Assembly: GCA_019113745.1 (NCBI GenBank)
Contig: DXGV01000016.1
Span: forward strand, 1 to 64,000
Direction of reading: 5' to 3'
DNA: 64,000 nt
Source: Candidatus Blautia intestinavium
GTDB lineage: Bacteria > Bacillota > Clostridia > Lachnospirales > Lachnospiraceae
Shown: piece after piece, positions 1,476-63,822 of the stretch
Numbering within the stretch: position 1 is the first letter of the stretch
Layout of the letters: each line of letters opens with the position of its first letter
Position numbers and translations under genes: made by a program
The notes under the pieces: model-generated
Told to the model about the DNA's origin: nothing
The model's input: the letters and a program-made list of their open reading frames with translations, nothing else
The model's database searches: none

Positions 1476-2035
1476 TTTTTTTGAAATTGTTTATCAGCTT
1501 TATGCAGATAGGGCTTTTCAGCTTTGGAGGAGGATACGCCGCCATGCCTCTTATTCAGGAACAGGTTGTAAATATACATGGATGGCTCAGTATGAGCGAA
1601 TTTACAGATCTGATCACAATTTCCCAGATGACTCCGGGTCCTATCGCTATTAATTCCGCTACGTTCGTCGGAATAAAAACAGCAGGAATTCCCGGGGCGG
1701 CGGTGGCTACCTTCGGCTGTATTCTGCCCTCCTGCATCATCGTGACTTTAATTGCAAAAATATATTTAAGATACCGGAACGTGACAGTTTTTCAGAGCGT
1801 GCTGGATTCTCTGCGGCCCGCCGTAGTCGCGATGATTGCTTCAGCCGGTGTTTCCATTCTGGTTTCAGCGATTTGGCCGTCTGTGGAAAAGATCTGTTTT
1901 GCAGATATGAACTGGGAAATGGCAGCTATATTTGTAATTTGTCTTTTCCTTCTGAAAAAGGGAAGGCTAAATCCGGTGGCCGTCATGATCCTCGCGGGCC
2001 TTATGAAGCTCGGATGCGCAGTTTTAGCGGCTTAA
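1472..2035 (+). CDS. Chromate transporter family protein, second half
   Basis: The second short CHR-family subunit (187 residues), translationally coupled to the first by the ATGA overlap at 1472-1475. It carries FSFGGGYAAMPLI near the N terminus and the TPGPIAINSATFVG motif, matching the family signature, and is expected to form a heterodimer with the upstream product in the membrane. It converges on mnmA, with the two stop codons overlapping by 4 bp at 2032-2035 and no terminator visible between them. Confidence 0.88.
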   Translation: MIFLKLFISFMQIGLFSFGGGYAAMPLIQEQVVNIHGWLSMSEFTDLITISQMTPGPIAINSATFVGIKTAGIPGAAVATFGCILPSCIIVTLIAKIYLRYRNVTVFQSVLDSLRPAVVAMIASAGVSILVSAIWPSVEKICFADMNWEMAAIFVICLFLLKKGRLNPVAVMILAGLMKLGCAVLAA

Positions 2036-3120
2036 CGCTGCGTTTCTCCCAGTATCGTTCCGCCGCCGAGGACGGTATCTCCGTCATAGAGAACGGCGGC
2101 CTGTCCGGGGGTAACCGCTCTCTGAGGTTCACAGAACGTAATCTTAAGGAGATCGTCCCCAATCTGTTCGGCAATGGCCGGCTGTTCCGGCTGTCGGTAG
2201 CGCACCTTTACTTTGCAGGAAACAGGTCCGGGCATTTTCTCCCAGGGAATCAGATTGATGTCGTTTACATAGCAGGTATCGGTGAAAAGATCCTGCTTCC
2301 TGCCAAGGATCACCGTATTGTTTTTTAAGGACTTTCCGCATACATACAGAGATTCCGGCGCGGAAATACCCAGTCCGCGGCGCTGGCCGATGGTGTAGTG
2401 GATCTGTCCTTTGTGATGGCCGAGGATATTTCCATCCCGGTCTACAAAATCGCCGGGCCGAGAATGTTTCCCGGTATATTCCTCAATAAAAGAAGCGTAA
2501 TCTCCATCGGGAACAAAACAGATATCCTGGCTTTCCGGCTTATCCGCGTTGACGAATCCCTGTTCCTGGGCAATCCGGCGGATCTCCGCTTTCGTATAGC
2601 CTCCAAGGGGAAAAAGAGTATGGGAAAGCTGATCCTGATTCATGGAATAAAGCACATAGCTCTGGTCCTTGGAGGGATCCAGACCTTTTTTAAGAAGATA
2701 TCTTCCGGTATCCGGATCCTGCTCAATACGGGCATAGTGGCCGCTGGCGATATACTCCGCGCCCAACTCGCGGGCTTTCTGAAGAAGGGCGTCAAATTTT
2801 AAGAAACGGTTGCAGTCAATACATGGGTTGGGAGTCCCGCCTGCAAAATAAGTATCTGAAAATTTCTGAATTACATTTTTACGGAACTCTTCCTGCATGG
2901 GAAATACATAATACAGTATTCCTAAGCCTGCCGCCACATGCCGGGCGTCTTCCGTATCTGAGGGGGTGCAGCAGGCTCGGGTGTTGGCGGAAATATCCTG
3001 TGGTTTGTCATATAATTTCATAGTAGCGCCTGCGCACTCGTAGCCCTCTCGGATCATCAGGTAGGCCGCTACGCTGGAGTCCACACCGCCGCTCATGGCA
3101 ATGATCACTTTTTTCTTCAT
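2032..3120 (-). CDS. mnmA: tRNA-specific 2-thiouridylase MnmA
   Basis: A 362-residue cytoplasmic enzyme that thiolates U34 of tRNA Glu, Gln and Lys, using ATP and sulfur relayed from cysteine. The N-terminal PP-loop SGGVDSSVAAYLM binds ATP; the catalytic cysteines are in NPCIDCNR and SQDICFVPDG. The usual length and full domain set are present. The start has AGGAGG seven to eight bases upstream. Its promoter (3217-3245) lies beyond a palindromic repeat (3164-3216), so that palindrome should be transcribed in the mnmA leader. It is divergent from the Met/Cys-rich ORF and metQNI. Confidence 0.96.
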   Translation of the reverse strand: MKKKVIIAMSGGVDSSVAAYLMIREGYECAGATMKLYDKPQDISANTRACCTPSDTEDARHVAAGLGILYYVFPMQEEFRKNVIQKFSDTYFAGGTPNPCIDCNRFLKFDALLQKARELGAEYIASGHYARIEQDPDTGRYLLKKGLDPSKDQSYVLYSMNQDQLSHTLFPLGGYTKAEIRRIAQEQGFVNADKPESQDICFVPDGDYASFIEEYTGKHSRPGDFVDRDGNILGHHKGQIHYTIGQRRGLGISAPESLYVCGKSLKNNTVILGRKQDLFTDTCYVNDINLIPWEKMPGPVSCKVKVRYRQPEQPAIAEQIGDDLLKITFCEPQRAVTPGQAAVLYDGDTVLGGGTILGETQR

Positions 3121-3163
3121 GGATAAACCTCCTAAAATTCTGGTTTCAGGGAATCTTTATATC

Positions 3164-3216
3164 GTTAGCGTTAATGTACAAGGAGAGCGTGTTGCCCCTT
3201 GTATATTAACGCTAAC
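3164..3216. repeat. Full palindromic copy of the dispersed repeat
   Basis: The arms 3164-3183 and 3197-3216 are 20 bp each with one mismatch. The 13-base loop contains AGCGTGTTG, also present in the loop at 9976-9984. It lies between mnmA and its promoter, so the RNA would carry a strong hairpin about 45-95 nt before the mnmA start. There is no T tract, so it is not an ordinary terminator. Confidence 0.9.
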
Positions 3217-3245
3217 ATGGTATCATTACAGGGCAATAGTGTCAA
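3217..3245 (-). promoter_or_regulatory. mnmA promoter
   Basis: On the minus strand a perfect -35 TTGACA (3245-3240) and a -10 TACCAT (3222-3217) are separated by 17 bp. It is back to back with the promoter at 3257-3285; only 11 bp separate the two -35 boxes. Confidence 0.7.
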
Positions 3246-3256
3246 TGAAAAAACAG

Positions 3257-3285
3257 TTGACAGAGACAGTATATCGTGCTATCAT
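3257..3285 (+). promoter_or_regulatory. Promoter of the leader ORF and met transporter region
   Basis: TTGACA (3257-3262) and TATCAT (3280-3285) are separated by 17 bp. It is the only convincing sigma-A-type promoter before metQ, which suggests that metQNI is transcribed from here through the ORF and terminator. Confidence 0.75.
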
Positions 3286-3324
3286 TCAACACATAAATAG
3301 ACTGAAAGAAAAGGAGGAAGAATC

Positions 3325-3483
3325 ATGTTTACAGTTAATGCAGAACAGAAGAGATATATGTGCGGTATGATGGGTCAGGACATGTGCATGGATATGTCTA
3401 TGTTTTGTTGTGCATTTATGTATCAGAGACTTCCTGAAGCATCGGCCGGTTTTAAGAGAATCCCGGACGTTGCCGGAGTGTAG
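3325..3483 (+). CDS. 52-residue Met/Cys-rich small ORF, candidate leader peptide
   Basis: It has a strong Shine-Dalgarno AAGGAGG (3311-3317) and an ATG at 3325. Residues 12-32 contain eight Met and four Cys in 21 positions; the C-terminal 20 residues are ordinary. There is no signal peptide or membrane segment. I do not recognise a family. Two readings fit: a leader peptide sensing sulfur amino acids for the downstream methionine importer, or a small metal/thiol-binding protein. The leader reading is favoured because codons 35-37 contain CTTCCTG (3430-3436), identical to the 3' arm of the terminator at 3524-3555, and because metQNI follows. Confidence 0.7.
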   Translation: MFTVNAEQKRYMCGMMGQDMCMDMSMFCCAFMYQRLPEASAGFKRIPDVAGV

Positions 3484-3555
3484 ACAGAACAATATCTGAA
3501 CAGATATCGGCTTGACACATCTGCAGGAAGATCCCTTTGGACTTCCTGTTTTTTT
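3430..3555 (+). promoter_or_regulatory. Candidate transcription attenuator before metQNI
   Basis: Segment 2, CTTCCTG (3430-3436), can pair with segment 3, CAGGAAG (3524-3530). Segment 3 otherwise pairs with segment 4, CTTCCTG (3542-3548), to make the terminator. A ribosome stalled on the Met/Cys codons (3358-3420) would leave segment 2 free and favour the antiterminator. A small dyad ATATCTG/CAGATAT (3492-3507) lies in the intervening loop. This is an inference from base complementarity. Confidence 0.5.
3524..3555 (+). terminator. Intrinsic terminator between leader ORF and metQ
   Basis: CAGGAAG (3524-3530) and CTTCCTG (3542-3548) form the stem, with seven T immediately after (3549-3555). 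It lies 40 bases after the small ORF's stop and 72 bases before metQ. Confidence 0.85.
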
Positions 3556-3626
3556 CAGTTTAGGGGAAGATTCAGAGGAAAGGAAAACTAAATAAGAAAA
3601 AATTATAAGACAGGAGAGAAGAAGTT

Positions 3627-4475
3627 ATGAAAATCAAAAAAATACTGGCAGGAACAATTACAGCATCACTTGTACTGGGAGCTTTCGCAGGGAGTTCTAT
3701 CCTTGTAAGCGCCGATGATAAAACTATCACAGTAGCAGCGTCGGCTACGCCTCATGCGGAAATCCTGGAACAGGCGGCTCCGCTTCTTGAAGAGCAGGGA
3801 TGGGAACTTGAAGTTACCGTATTCGAGGATTATGTACAGCCGAATCTGGTAGTAGACAGCGGAGACTTTGACGCGAACTATTTCCAGCATATTCCTTATC
3901 TGGACGATTTTAATGAGGAACATGGCACCAGCCTTGTAAACGCAGGCGGCATCCACTATGAGCCATTCGGCATTTATCCGGGAACAAAGAAGGATCTTGG
4001 AGAGCTGGAAGAAGGAGACGTGATCGCAGTTCCGAACGATACAACCAACGAAGCGAGAGCCCTTCTGCTTCTTCAGGATAACGGCGTAATCAAGCTGAAA
4101 GACGGAGTCGGCCTGGAAGCCACAGTTAAGGATATTGAGGAGAATCCGAAAAATGTGGAGATCGAAGAGCTTGAGGCAGCGCAGGTTTCCCGTGTGGCAG
4201 ACGAGGTTGCTTTTGTGGTATTAAATGGAAACTACGCGCTGCAGGCAGGGTACTCTGTATCAAAGGACGCCATTGCCTATGAGAAATCAGATTCTGAGGC
4301 TGCTCAGACATATGTAAATGTGATCGCGGTAAAAGAGGGAAACGAGGACAGTGAAAAGATCAAAGCTCTGGTAGAGGTGCTGAAATCAGATGAAATCAAG
4401 GACTTTATCACTGAGAACTACGACGGAGCAGTAATTCCTTTTGATGATTCAGAAGATGCGGAAGCGGCTGAATAA
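3627..4475 (+). CDS. metQ: Methionine ABC transporter substrate-binding protein MetQ
   Basis: A 282-residue NlpA/MetQ-family binding protein that captures methionine outside the cell for MetNI. Family motifs include ASATPHAEIL near the mature N terminus, DYVQPN, FQHIPYLDDFN and PNDTTNEARALLLL. The N terminus is a signal peptide (basic start, hydrophobic core, then VSA-DD), but there is no lipobox: no cysteine follows the hydrophobic core, whereas Gram-positive MetQ is normally a lipoprotein. It may be released, or held by an uncleaved signal. RBS is AGGAGAG. No SAM riboswitch or T-box was recognised upstream. Confidence 0.94.
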   Translation: MKIKKILAGTITASLVLGAFAGSSILVSADDKTITVAASATPHAEILEQAAPLLEEQGWELEVTVFEDYVQPNLVVDSGDFDANYFQHIPYLDDFNEEHGTSLVNAGGIHYEPFGIYPGTKKDLGELEEGDVIAVPNDTTNEARALLLLQDNGVIKLKDGVGLEATVKDIEENPKNVEIEELEAAQVSRVADEVAFVVLNGNYALQAGYSVSKDAIAYEKSDSEAAQTYVNVIAVKEGNEDSEKIKALVEVLKSDEIKDFITENYDGAVIPFDDSEDAEAAE

Positions 4476-4519: not shown

Positions 4520-5530
4520 ATGGAACCTATCATACAGGTAGAGCACCTGTGCAAGAGCTTTTCAGCCAGAGGCGGATCGGTAGAGGCTGCCAGGGATATC
4601 AGTTTTTGTATTGAAAAAGGGGATATCTTTGGAATCATTGGCCTTTCCGGAGCAGGAAAAAGTACGCTTGTCCGCTGTCTGAATCTTCTGGAACGGCCCA
4701 CTTCCGGAACAGTCCGCGTTCATGGAAAGGAGCTGACGGCTTTGTCAGACAGAGAACTGCGCAGAGAGAGACAAAAGATCGGAATGATCTTCCAGCATTT
4801 TAATCTTCTGATGCAGAGAACAGCCCTGGATAACATTTGTTTTCCTATGGAAATCGCCGGGATAAAGAAAAAGGAAGCCAGGAGAAAAGCTATAGAATAT
4901 CTGAAGATCGTAGGACTGGAGGATAAGGCGCTGTCTTATCCGGCCCAGCTCTCCGGCGGACAGAAGCAGAGAGTGGCGATTGCCAGAGTACTGGCCTCCG
5001 ATCCGGATATCCTTCTCTGCGACGAGGCTACCAGCGCTCTGGATCCCCAGACGACCAAATCAATTCTGGAACTTCTGAAGGAAATCAATCAGAAGTACGG
5101 AATCACTATTGTAGTCATTACTCATGAGATGAGCGTGGTTCAGGAGATCTGCAACAGAGTGGCAGTTCTGGACGAAGGCGTTCTGGCGGAAACCGGAACA
5201 GTGGAGGAGCTGTTCCGCAATCCGAAGACAGAAGCGGCCCGCAAGCTGGTGTTCAGCGGAAGAAACCAGATTAAAGAGATGAAAGGAAAACACCTGGTAA
5301 GAGTGACTTTTGAAAATAAGTCGTCTTTTGAACCGGTAATCGGAAATCTGGTGCTGGAGTTCCGCACTCCGGTGAACATTCTCTATGCCGATACGAAAAA
5401 TATCAACGGACAGGCGGAAGGAGAGATGATCCTGCAGCTTCCGGAGGACAGAGAGACTGCGAAAAAGATGATACGATATCTGAAAAATATCCGTATGGGA
5501 GTGGAGGAGCTGAATTCTGATGTTGGATAA
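4520..5530 (+). CDS. metN: Methionine ABC transporter ATP-binding protein MetN
   Basis: A 336-residue ATPase that powers methionine import. Walker A GLSGAGKST, signature LSGGQKQRVAIARVLA and Walker B ILLCDEATSALDP are intact. The C-terminal third is an NIL regulatory domain (about residues 255-336), which in characterised MetN proteins binds methionine and inhibits transport. Its start overlaps nothing; the RBS GGGAGG precedes ATG by about ten bases. It overlaps metI by 11 bp, implying coupled translation. Confidence 0.96.
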   Translation: MEPIIQVEHLCKSFSARGGSVEAARDISFCIEKGDIFGIIGLSGAGKSTLVRCLNLLERPTSGTVRVHGKELTALSDRELRRERQKIGMIFQHFNLLMQRTALDNICFPMEIAGIKKKEARRKAIEYLKIVGLEDKALSYPAQLSGGQKQRVAIARVLASDPDILLCDEATSALDPQTTKSILELLKEINQKYGITIVVITHEMSVVQEICNRVAVLDEGVLAETGTVEELFRNPKTEAARKLVFSGRNQIKEMKGKHLVRVTFENKSSFEPVIGNLVLEFRTPVNILYADTKNINGQAEGEMILQLPEDRETAKKMIRYLKNIRMGVEELNSDVG

Positions 5531-6182
5531 TGATACGATCATGATGCTGGTGGAAGGTACCAGAGATACACTATATATGACATTAATGTCAACATTTTTC
5601 GGATATGTCCTGGGACTGCCCCTGGGAATCCTGCTTACTGTGACAGATAAGGAAGGGATCCGTCCCAACGCCTTTGTTTATAAGATACTTGATGTGATTG
5701 TAAATATACTGAGGAGTATTCCCTTTTTGATCCTTCTGATTCTGGTTATTCCCGTGACGAAGGCAATCGTAGGAAAAAGCTATGGTTCCAGTGCCACGAT
5801 CGTTCCTCTTGTGATAGCGGCAGCCCCGTTTATTGCCAGAATGGTGGAATCTTCCTTAAAAGAAGTAGATTCCGGAGTGATCGAGGCAGCCGTCAGTATG
5901 GGCGCGGGAACCGGTACGGTGATCTGGAAGGTTCTTCTGGCTGAAGCGAGAACTTCCCTTCTGGTGGGCGTTACCATTGCTGTAGGGACAATCCTGGGAT
6001 ATTCCGCAATGGCCGGTACTGTCGGCGGAGGCGGTCTTGGCGATATTGCCATCCGGTATGGGTATTATCGCTACCAGACGGATATCATGATTGTGACGAT
6101 CGTGATCCTGGTAGTGCTGGTGCAGATCCTTCAGGGAATTGGAATGATGCTTTCCAAGAAGCTGGATAAGAGAAGAGCTTAG
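5520..6182 (+). CDS. metI: Methionine ABC transporter permease MetI
   Basis: A 220-residue inner-membrane permease with about five hydrophobic helices. The cytoplasmic coupling helix EAAVSMGAGTGTVIWKVLL and GYSAMAGTVGGGGLGDIA are MetI signatures. It is the last gene of the metQNI operon and starts inside metN. A bidirectional terminator follows at 6368-6413. Confidence 0.95.
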   Translation: MLDNDTIMMLVEGTRDTLYMTLMSTFFGYVLGLPLGILLTVTDKEGIRPNAFVYKILDVIVNILRSIPFLILLILVIPVTKAIVGKSYGSSATIVPLVIAAAPFIARMVESSLKEVDSGVIEAAVSMGAGTGTVIWKVLLAEARTSLLVGVTIAVGTILGYSAMAGTVGGGGLGDIAIRYGYYRYQTDIMIVTIVILVVLVQILQGIGMMLSKKLDKRRA

Positions 6183-35426: not shown

Positions 35427-35507
35427 GCGTATAGGATCCGCAGGAAAAGACAGGGCGCAGGCTGACCGGGGGATAATGCAGAAAAACGCTGAAATTACGC
35501 GGTTGAA

Positions 35508-35536
35508 AGCGTATTGCCCCTTGTACACTGACGCTA
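35508..35536 (+). repeat. Half-copy of dispersed repeat with loop
   Basis: AGCGTATTG followed by CCCCTTGTACACTGACGCTA equals the loop plus 3' arm of the full palindromes. The 5' arm is missing. Its TTGTAC also serves as a -35 (35521-35526). Confidence 0.85.
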
Positions 35537-63770: not shown

Positions 63771-63822
63771 ACGTGCTGCCCCTTGTACATTAACGCTATT
63801 GTCCCCTTGTACACTGACGCTA
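63771..63822 (+). repeat. Two direct half-copies of the dispersed repeat
   Basis: Units 63771-63798 and 63799-63822 both contain CCCCTTGTACA and end ACGCTA; the first has ATTAACGCTA and the second has CTGACGCTA. They lie in the divergent spacer of rarA and yerC. Confidence 0.85.

Follow-up and report, generated by a model that had tools for sequence, protein, structure and literature searches.

A candidate ribosome-mediated attenuator reading methionine codons upstream of metQNI in Blautia, and a wider set of Met/Cys leaders preceding genes of sulfur amino acid metabolism

Introduction

Attenuators of the trp/his type in Proteobacteria combine a short open reading frame carrying a run of regulatory codons with the alternative RNA pairings 1:2, 2:3 and 3:4 and an intrinsic terminator. 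In Gram-positive bacteria, methionine genes are usually controlled by SAM riboswitches, T-boxes or transcription factors. Leader-peptide attenuation has nevertheless been proposed in Firmicutes for other amino acids and genes, namely a leucine attenuator peptide for ilv-leu of Staphylococcus aureus (PMC5794164) and histidine leader peptides in bacilli (PMC2965389). In Actinobacteria, runs of cysteine codons are reported to precede cys operons, with neither a conserved terminator there nor a comparable structure for methionine operons (PMC1262725); T-boxes have also been surveyed (PMC2494555). The initial annotation of the locus studied here knew of no described Met/Cys peptide attenuator for metQNI in this group. 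Among the matches listed from open-access papers, none describes a leader peptide of the Met or Met/Cys kind for either metNIQ or metY.

Here we analyse a leader upstream of metQNI in a stretch of 64,000 nucleotides from Candidatus Blautia intestinavium (hereafter the window). Our comparative analysis suggests that metQNI is very probably controlled by a ribosome-mediated transcription attenuator that reads Met codons, and the window leader appears, from sequence comparison, to belong to a broader class of Met/Cys leaders located upstream of sulfur amino acid genes.

Results

A Met/Cys-rich leader ORF and a terminator precede metQNI

The metQNI operon is divergent from mnmA and is preceded by the following features.

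2032-3120, minus strand: mnmA, divergent from metQ (Pfam)
3257-3285, plus strand: promoter of the leader and metQNI, TTGACA, 17 nt, TATCAT, extended TG (promoter scan)
3311-3317, plus strand: Shine-Dalgarno sequence of the leader ORF, AAGGAGG (read from sequence)
3315-3436, plus strand: predicted 1:2 pairing between the Shine-Dalgarno/start region (AGGAAG, 3315-3320, onward) and a stretch comprising region 2 and the last part of the Met run (ViennaRNA, 8/8 leaders)
3325-3483, plus strand: leader ORF, 52 codons and 52 amino acids, coordinates including the stop (ORF list, relatives)
3358-3420, plus strand: Met/Cys run (codons 12-32), where stalling is proposed (Met columns unchanged across the 7 distinct sequences)
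3430-3436, plus strand: region 2, CTTCCTG, within the ORF, Leu-Pro codons (re-read by script; kept in relatives)
3439-3473, plus strand: predicted hairpin A, between regions 2 and 3 (fold)
3474-3523, plus strand: predicted hairpin M, between regions 2 and 3 (fold and pair counts)
3524-3530, plus strand: region 3, CAGGAAG, the terminator 5' arm (terminator scan)
3542-3555, plus strand: region 4, CTTCCTG (3542-3548), the terminator 3' arm, with the T-run 3549-3555 (terminator scan)
3627-4475, plus strand: metQ, NlpA lipoprotein (PF03180)
4520-5530, plus strand: metN, ABC ATPase with NIL domain (PF00005, PF09383)
5520-6182, plus strand: metI, permease (PF00528)

Re-reading the sequence by script placed the promoter, Shine-Dalgarno sequence, 52-codon ORF and terminator where the initial annotation had them, and confirmed both its count of eight Met and four Cys codons within 21 codons and its observation that CTTCCTG at 3430-3436 duplicates the terminator 3' arm. 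The internal Met codons are 12, 15, 16, 20, 22, 24, 26 and 32 and the Cys codons 13, 21, 28 and 29, so that 12 of the 21 codons specify a sulfur amino acid. This density is the highest among the 520 window ORFs of at least 30 amino acids (the next reaches 8 in 21 codons), and none of 5000 dinucleotide shuffles of the leader ORF attained 12 Met plus Cys, while CTTCCTG occurred in 2 of the 5000. The peptide has no Pfam match.

The promoter matches the consensus at 11 of 12 positions (-35 TTGACA at 3257-3262, -10 TATCAT at 3280-3285) in addition to the extended TG, and is also visible by eye in eight relatives. A promoter scan of 2900-4000 returned 3 sites against a shuffle mean of 1.8 (sd 1.4), an excess that is not clear. 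The sole plus-strand site in this interval is the one at 3257; hence no promoter is seen between the terminator and metQ, where a separate metQ promoter after 3555 would have spoken against the initial reading. A simple terminator scan did not report the hairpin at 3524-3555, which was detected by a second scan allowing longer loops and one mismatch; the score floor used, the lowest accepted among the leaders, was attained by 6 of 640 shuffled segments. Judged by sequence only, an intrinsic terminator is thus present between the ORF and metQ. A search with Rfam covariance models assigned the leader to no family, including SAM riboswitch and T-box, bearing out the initial statement that neither is recognisable there.

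Between mnmA and the leader promoter lies a palindrome (3164-3216) with arms of about 20 bases. It is a dispersed repeat, found at 57 places in its own genome at E<=1 (a count that includes both strands and overlapping matches), with further copies in the window at 35505-35536 and 63772-63798, and is absent from the corresponding place in one relative (G007).

Predicted folds allow mutually exclusive pairings

We folded eight leaders with ViennaRNA. In all eight, the predicted 1:2 helix joins the Shine-Dalgarno/start region to region 2 and the last part of the Met run, and regions 3 and 4 pair with each other. When a ribosome occupies the first, the next-to-last or the last internal Met codon, RNA extending through region 3 is predicted to form 2:3 with 6-7 of 7 pairs in 8/8 leaders, a fold that encloses two further hairpins. 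The front edge of a stalled ribosome lies at +13; at the last Met codon, an edge at this position would cover only the first base of region 2 and leave 6 of the 7 pairs. At equilibrium 3:4 beats 2:3 in every fold examined, and 2:3 therefore has to form first, during transcription. An idea that predated the folding, in which region 1 was a CAGGA inside the Met run, was dropped.

We propose the following mechanism. The leader would be translated by a ribosome while being transcribed. When Met-tRNA is ample, the ribosome would clear the Met codons, region 2 would be taken up by region 1, located at the ribosome-binding site of the leader itself, regions 3 and 4 would pair, and transcription would end at 3549-3555. 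When Met-tRNA is short, the ribosome would stall at codons 12-32, preventing 1:2 with its front edge reaching only the start of region 2; region 2 could then capture region 3, which would block the terminator and let metQNI be transcribed. A leader that is not translated would form 1:2 and the terminator, making off the default. In this scheme we infer that the leader is translated, that the ribosome stalls on it, that the pairings form in step with transcription and that the outcome responds to methionine. Charged tRNA-Met is the best explanation for the signal, probably together with tRNA-Cys in relatives.

Met codons and region 2 are conserved within the genus

Searching the 64 genus genomes at a threshold of E<=0.01 with a seven-row profile, consisting of the window leader and six related leaders, detected the leader in 8, each time with metQ directly downstream and with a Shine-Dalgarno sequence, ORF, region 2 and terminator. 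The named records carrying it are all Blautia (6 loci), comprising four poultry-named candidate species, one uncultured MAG and Blautia sp. Marseille-P3087. In the alignment of the 7 distinct sequences, all eight internal Met columns are invariant and the Cys columns are variable, the Met/Cys run varies in length with Met retained, and the C-terminal third of the peptide varies. The alignment that the initial annotation had suggested thus upholds conserved Met codons upstream of metQ. That annotation had proposed stalling at Met and Cys codons alike; in the window clade the Met codons are conserved and the Cys codons are not. Region 2 is conserved in 8/8 leaders, as is the spacing of 12 nt between the last Met codon and region 2.

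The helices themselves hardly vary within this clade. In 2:3, 6 of 7 pairs are invariant and there are no compensatory changes; 3:4 likewise has none; hairpin M contains one doubly changed pair; and in 1:2 two of the 29 pairs are doubly changed, a count that 318 of 500 shuffles also reach. With so little variation, the covarying arms that the initial annotation had named as a check were not seen within the window clade; covariation appeared in the wider family, as described below. Searching 397 family genomes with the window-clade profile gave 7 matches at E<=0.05, including the window's own, and nothing convincing elsewhere; the one of the six non-window matches that was read (L114) was rejected. 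None of the other 41 of the 49 genus loci screened has a Met-rich leader and terminator before metQ.

Other regulators occupy related loci

One SAM riboswitch match was found in 43 of the 64 genus genomes and none in the window's own genome, which is 83% complete. At 6/6 loci opened, the genus SAM riboswitch (RF00162) precedes a gene that we take, by its sequence, to be metK-like. Other Blautia mostly have the order metN-metI-metQ, and in 13 of 20 of their metN upstream regions the end of one and the same LysR-type gene was seen by eye (one confirmed by Pfam). Given this LysR-type gene and the 41 of 49 genus loci that have no leader, the leader probably replaces another regulator in the window clade. 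Searching 13 leader loci with cmscan identified no RNA family; among another 60 loci, of which 53 lack a leader and 7 carry one, it identified two T-boxes, both at leaderless loci and both directly before metN, the place the leader occupies elsewhere, with an ATG specifier assigned by eye.

Met/Cys leaders with terminators recur across the family

A MetQ match was present in 106 of 200 family genomes, giving 126 metQ places besides the window's own, and we fetched the upstream regions of 80 of these (ranks 2-84 minus three), several of which end at contig edges. Screening for ORFs of 14-75 codons preceded by a Shine-Dalgarno sequence and containing at least 4 Met in 12 codons yielded 26/80 loci on the forward versus 4/80 on the reverse strand; two of the 26 (L223, L258) were removed because by eye they lie inside other coding sequence. 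A screen blind to composition (Shine-Dalgarno sequence, 20-62 codons, terminator 10-140 nt past the stop) yielded 45 ORFs at 39 loci forward versus 4 ORFs at 2 loci reverse. Here Met was the most enriched residue (7.1-fold), followed by Tyr (6.5-fold) and Cys (2.7-fold), all, Tyr included, against a baseline of only 179 reverse-strand residues. This second screen regained 23 of the 24 Met-rich leaders and added three (L215, L227, L253).

In total, a Met/Cys leader with a terminator precedes metN, metQ or a fused binding-protein gene at 27 of 80 family loci. The next gene was assigned by sequence motif for 26 of the 27; for the remaining leader (L227), a metQ-like gene was seen at another locus (L273). 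Leaders of different groups are unrelated in sequence, and each has its own matching segment; what is kept across them is the Shine-Dalgarno sequence, the frame, the Met/Cys codons and the matching terminator. In many otherwise different leaders a Cys-Arg-Met motif closes the Met/Cys run, and neither pairing nor codon sensing as yet accounts for its Arg.

A separate search for a pattern of five alternating ATGs matched 215 of 397 family genomes, mostly noise; 30 loci were opened and 10 examined further, of which one (L142) has a Met-rich ORF directly before metN. This leader (genome G310, 1470-1580) has a strong hairpin without a T-run and was excluded from the terminator-based tests. The same genome carries a second, distinct Met-rich leader (L263, 153-251), so that two such leaders precede two met transporter operons.

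Leader and terminator covary in family relatives

We compared the pairing of each terminator 5' arm, together with the loop and three upstream bases, with its own leader region in 26 leaders; these own-arm tests left out six near-copies from the window clade and kept two members (G009, G028). Own-arm pairing summed to -438.6 kcal/mol, versus a permuted mean of -353.9 (sd 13.7), and was equalled in 0 of 20000 permutations, or 2 of 20000 when the type A leaders (described below) and the window leaders were left out. In the initial test of 2:3, which used the stem arm alone, 1 of 5000 permutations did as well or better; the arm was widened post hoc, once pairing between region 2 and the loop had been noticed in some leaders. 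In five leaders (L190, L194, L205, L256, L261) the own arm pairs no better than foreign arms.

A profile of five type A leaders matched 40 of 397 family genomes at E<=0.02, and 30 of the 49 places listed were read. A Ser-Gln/Arg motif, whose codons form region 2, was found at 28 of these 30 loci, and in 24 of the 28 an exact 8-nt complement of region 2 lies past the stop codon. Taking the first C[CT]GGG past the stop as the arm base, 27 of the 30 loci could be scored; two of the others (L275, L294) have a frame without the motif, probably misplaced at contig ends, and one (L291) has no scorable base. Ser-Gln was accompanied by T in the arm in 8/8 cases and Ser-Arg by C in 19/19 (Fisher 4.5e-7, uncorrected for relatedness, as are all p-values given here), and the association persisted without the five profile members (5/5 and 17/17). 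Both Ser-Arg-Thr leaders carry a matching GTCCGGGA. That the peptide's Ser-Gln or Ser-Arg tracks T or C in the arm argues that this part of the ORF is kept for pairing with the terminator; such dependence of a residue on the terminator sequence is hard to account for by a function of the peptide.

The Met:Cys ratio differs between target genes

The 27 family leaders contain 112 Cys codons, versus a mean of 73 and a maximum of 90 in 500 shuffles. Two of the fused binding proteins (L183, L188) were checked and combine SBP_bac_3 and NlpA (MetQ) domains in about 560-580 amino acids. Leaders of the fused gene (n=6) have a Cys share of 0.45-0.64, versus 0.11-0.56 before plain metN/metQ (n=20; p=0.0004), and metY leaders are richer in Cys than plain Met-transporter leaders (p=4e-5). 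By motif, the genes following the 28 type A leaders are metY (12), SBP_bac_3-type (7), metN (1) and metQ (1), with 5 other or unknown and 2 off the contig.

Ten of the proteins encoded next to type A leaders were searched against NCBIfam. Two (L280, L298) scored above the cut-off for O-acetylhomoserine sulfhydrylase and a third (L295) had it as best match, below the cut-off; the protein at L274 matched both MetQ-type and cystine-type binding proteins, and that at L278 matched the cystine type only and looks unfused. Behind a Cys/Met leader (L291, genome G372), the best match was (2S)-3-sulfopropanediol dehydratase, partial and below the cut-off, an observation that raises the possibility of sulfonate-use control. 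Four of the ten had no NCBIfam match; three type A leaders (L277, L281, L284) stand before such unmatched genes, which are candidates for unknown sulfur genes.

At the level of the order, 5 of 196 genomes matched at E<=0.01, four of which belong to other families (three to f8 and one to f17); by eye, these four leaders are of the CRM..SRA type with a metY-like gene next. A further Cys/Met leader (L303, G291 C16:828979-829059), with Ser-Gln-Gly as region 2, precedes a small yezD-like gene, and a metK-like gene lies further downstream by eye.

Discussion

At the sequence level the window leader has the hallmarks of an attenuator: its parts, their conservation and a set of pairings predicted to be mutually exclusive, of which 1:2 is a prediction and the covariation comes from family relatives. 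The attenuator reading put forward initially is therefore strengthened by conservation in the genus, by the leaders of the family, by own-arm pairing and by the Gln/Arg-T/C association. The same features bear on three other explanations of the locus. It is improbable, we believe, that the peptide is a nascent-chain sensor that halts the ribosome when it binds a small molecule such as Met or SAM, as TnaC does. Such an arrest could operate the same 2:3/3:4 switch, and many leaders end their run with Cys-Arg-Met, but the motif is missing from the window clade, the run shifts in length though Met is kept, and the codons sensed track the target gene.

Still less credence is due to the two remaining explanations. 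Met- and Cys-rich motifs do resemble metal-binding peptides, and the initial annotation had offered as its alternative a functional metal- or thiol-binding miniprotein, with, by implication, an ordinary terminator. The conservation over the full length, Cys ligands included, that would speak for such a protein was not found: the Cys columns and the C-terminal third vary, Pfam recognises no domain, the amino acid choice of relatives tracks the terminator base, and the leaders of other groups share no sequence yet precede sulfur amino acid genes. The miniprotein is thus very unlikely. It would be just as surprising if the terminator were worked by an unrecognised ligand-binding RNA in which the ORF is incidental; the leader is strongly structured in prediction, but Rfam has no match, and it is the Shine-Dalgarno sequence, the frame, the Met/Cys codons and the matching terminator that are kept. 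We accordingly favour attenuation by a ribosome reading Met codons.

Taken together, our analyses lead us to think it fairly likely that Clostridia hold an undescribed attenuation regulon for sulfur amino acids, spread over three families of the order, in which the Met:Cys ratio of the leader is tuned to its target, two sulfur tRNAs are sensed, and LysR, T-box or SAM control is replaced. As part of the same joint reading, held with the same reasonable but incomplete confidence, leaders would be Met-rich before metNIQ/metQNI, mixed before fused cystine-type/MetQ genes and Cys-rich before metY, and one case each would stand before a gene resembling sulfopropanediol dehydratase and before a yezD-like gene with metK. 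If true, this would tell how a set of Clostridia regulate methionine uptake and metY, and would add to leader-peptide attenuation a class reading Met (and Cys) codons, including an amino acid that is awkward for the mechanism because initiation of the leader itself requires fMet. The covariation of Gln/Arg with the terminator makes this class directly testable. Moreover, the signature of a Met/Cys ORF with a matching terminator could place unnamed genes in sulfur metabolism.

Compared with known systems, the Met T-box reads the charging of tRNA-Met, as we propose for the leader, but binds the tRNA without translation, and none was found in the window. SAM riboswitches exert terminator control over methionine genes, as would the leader, and are not present at it. 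The Leu leader of S. aureus and the His leaders of bacilli are likewise cases of leader-peptide attenuation in Firmicutes, for other amino acids and genes, whereas the leaders described here differ from the Cys leaders of Actinobacteria in having terminators and in the dominance of Met codons. Most similar are the trp/his-type attenuators, with which the window leader shares an ORF with a codon run, competing pairings as far as predicted, and a terminator before the operon. Unlike them, it would sense Met (and Cys) codons, its region 2 lies within the ORF, 12 nt past the run, and its region 1 is the leader's own Shine-Dalgarno/start region. Judging from these shared and differing parts, the window leader is most likely a new amino-acid variant of the trp-type mechanism.
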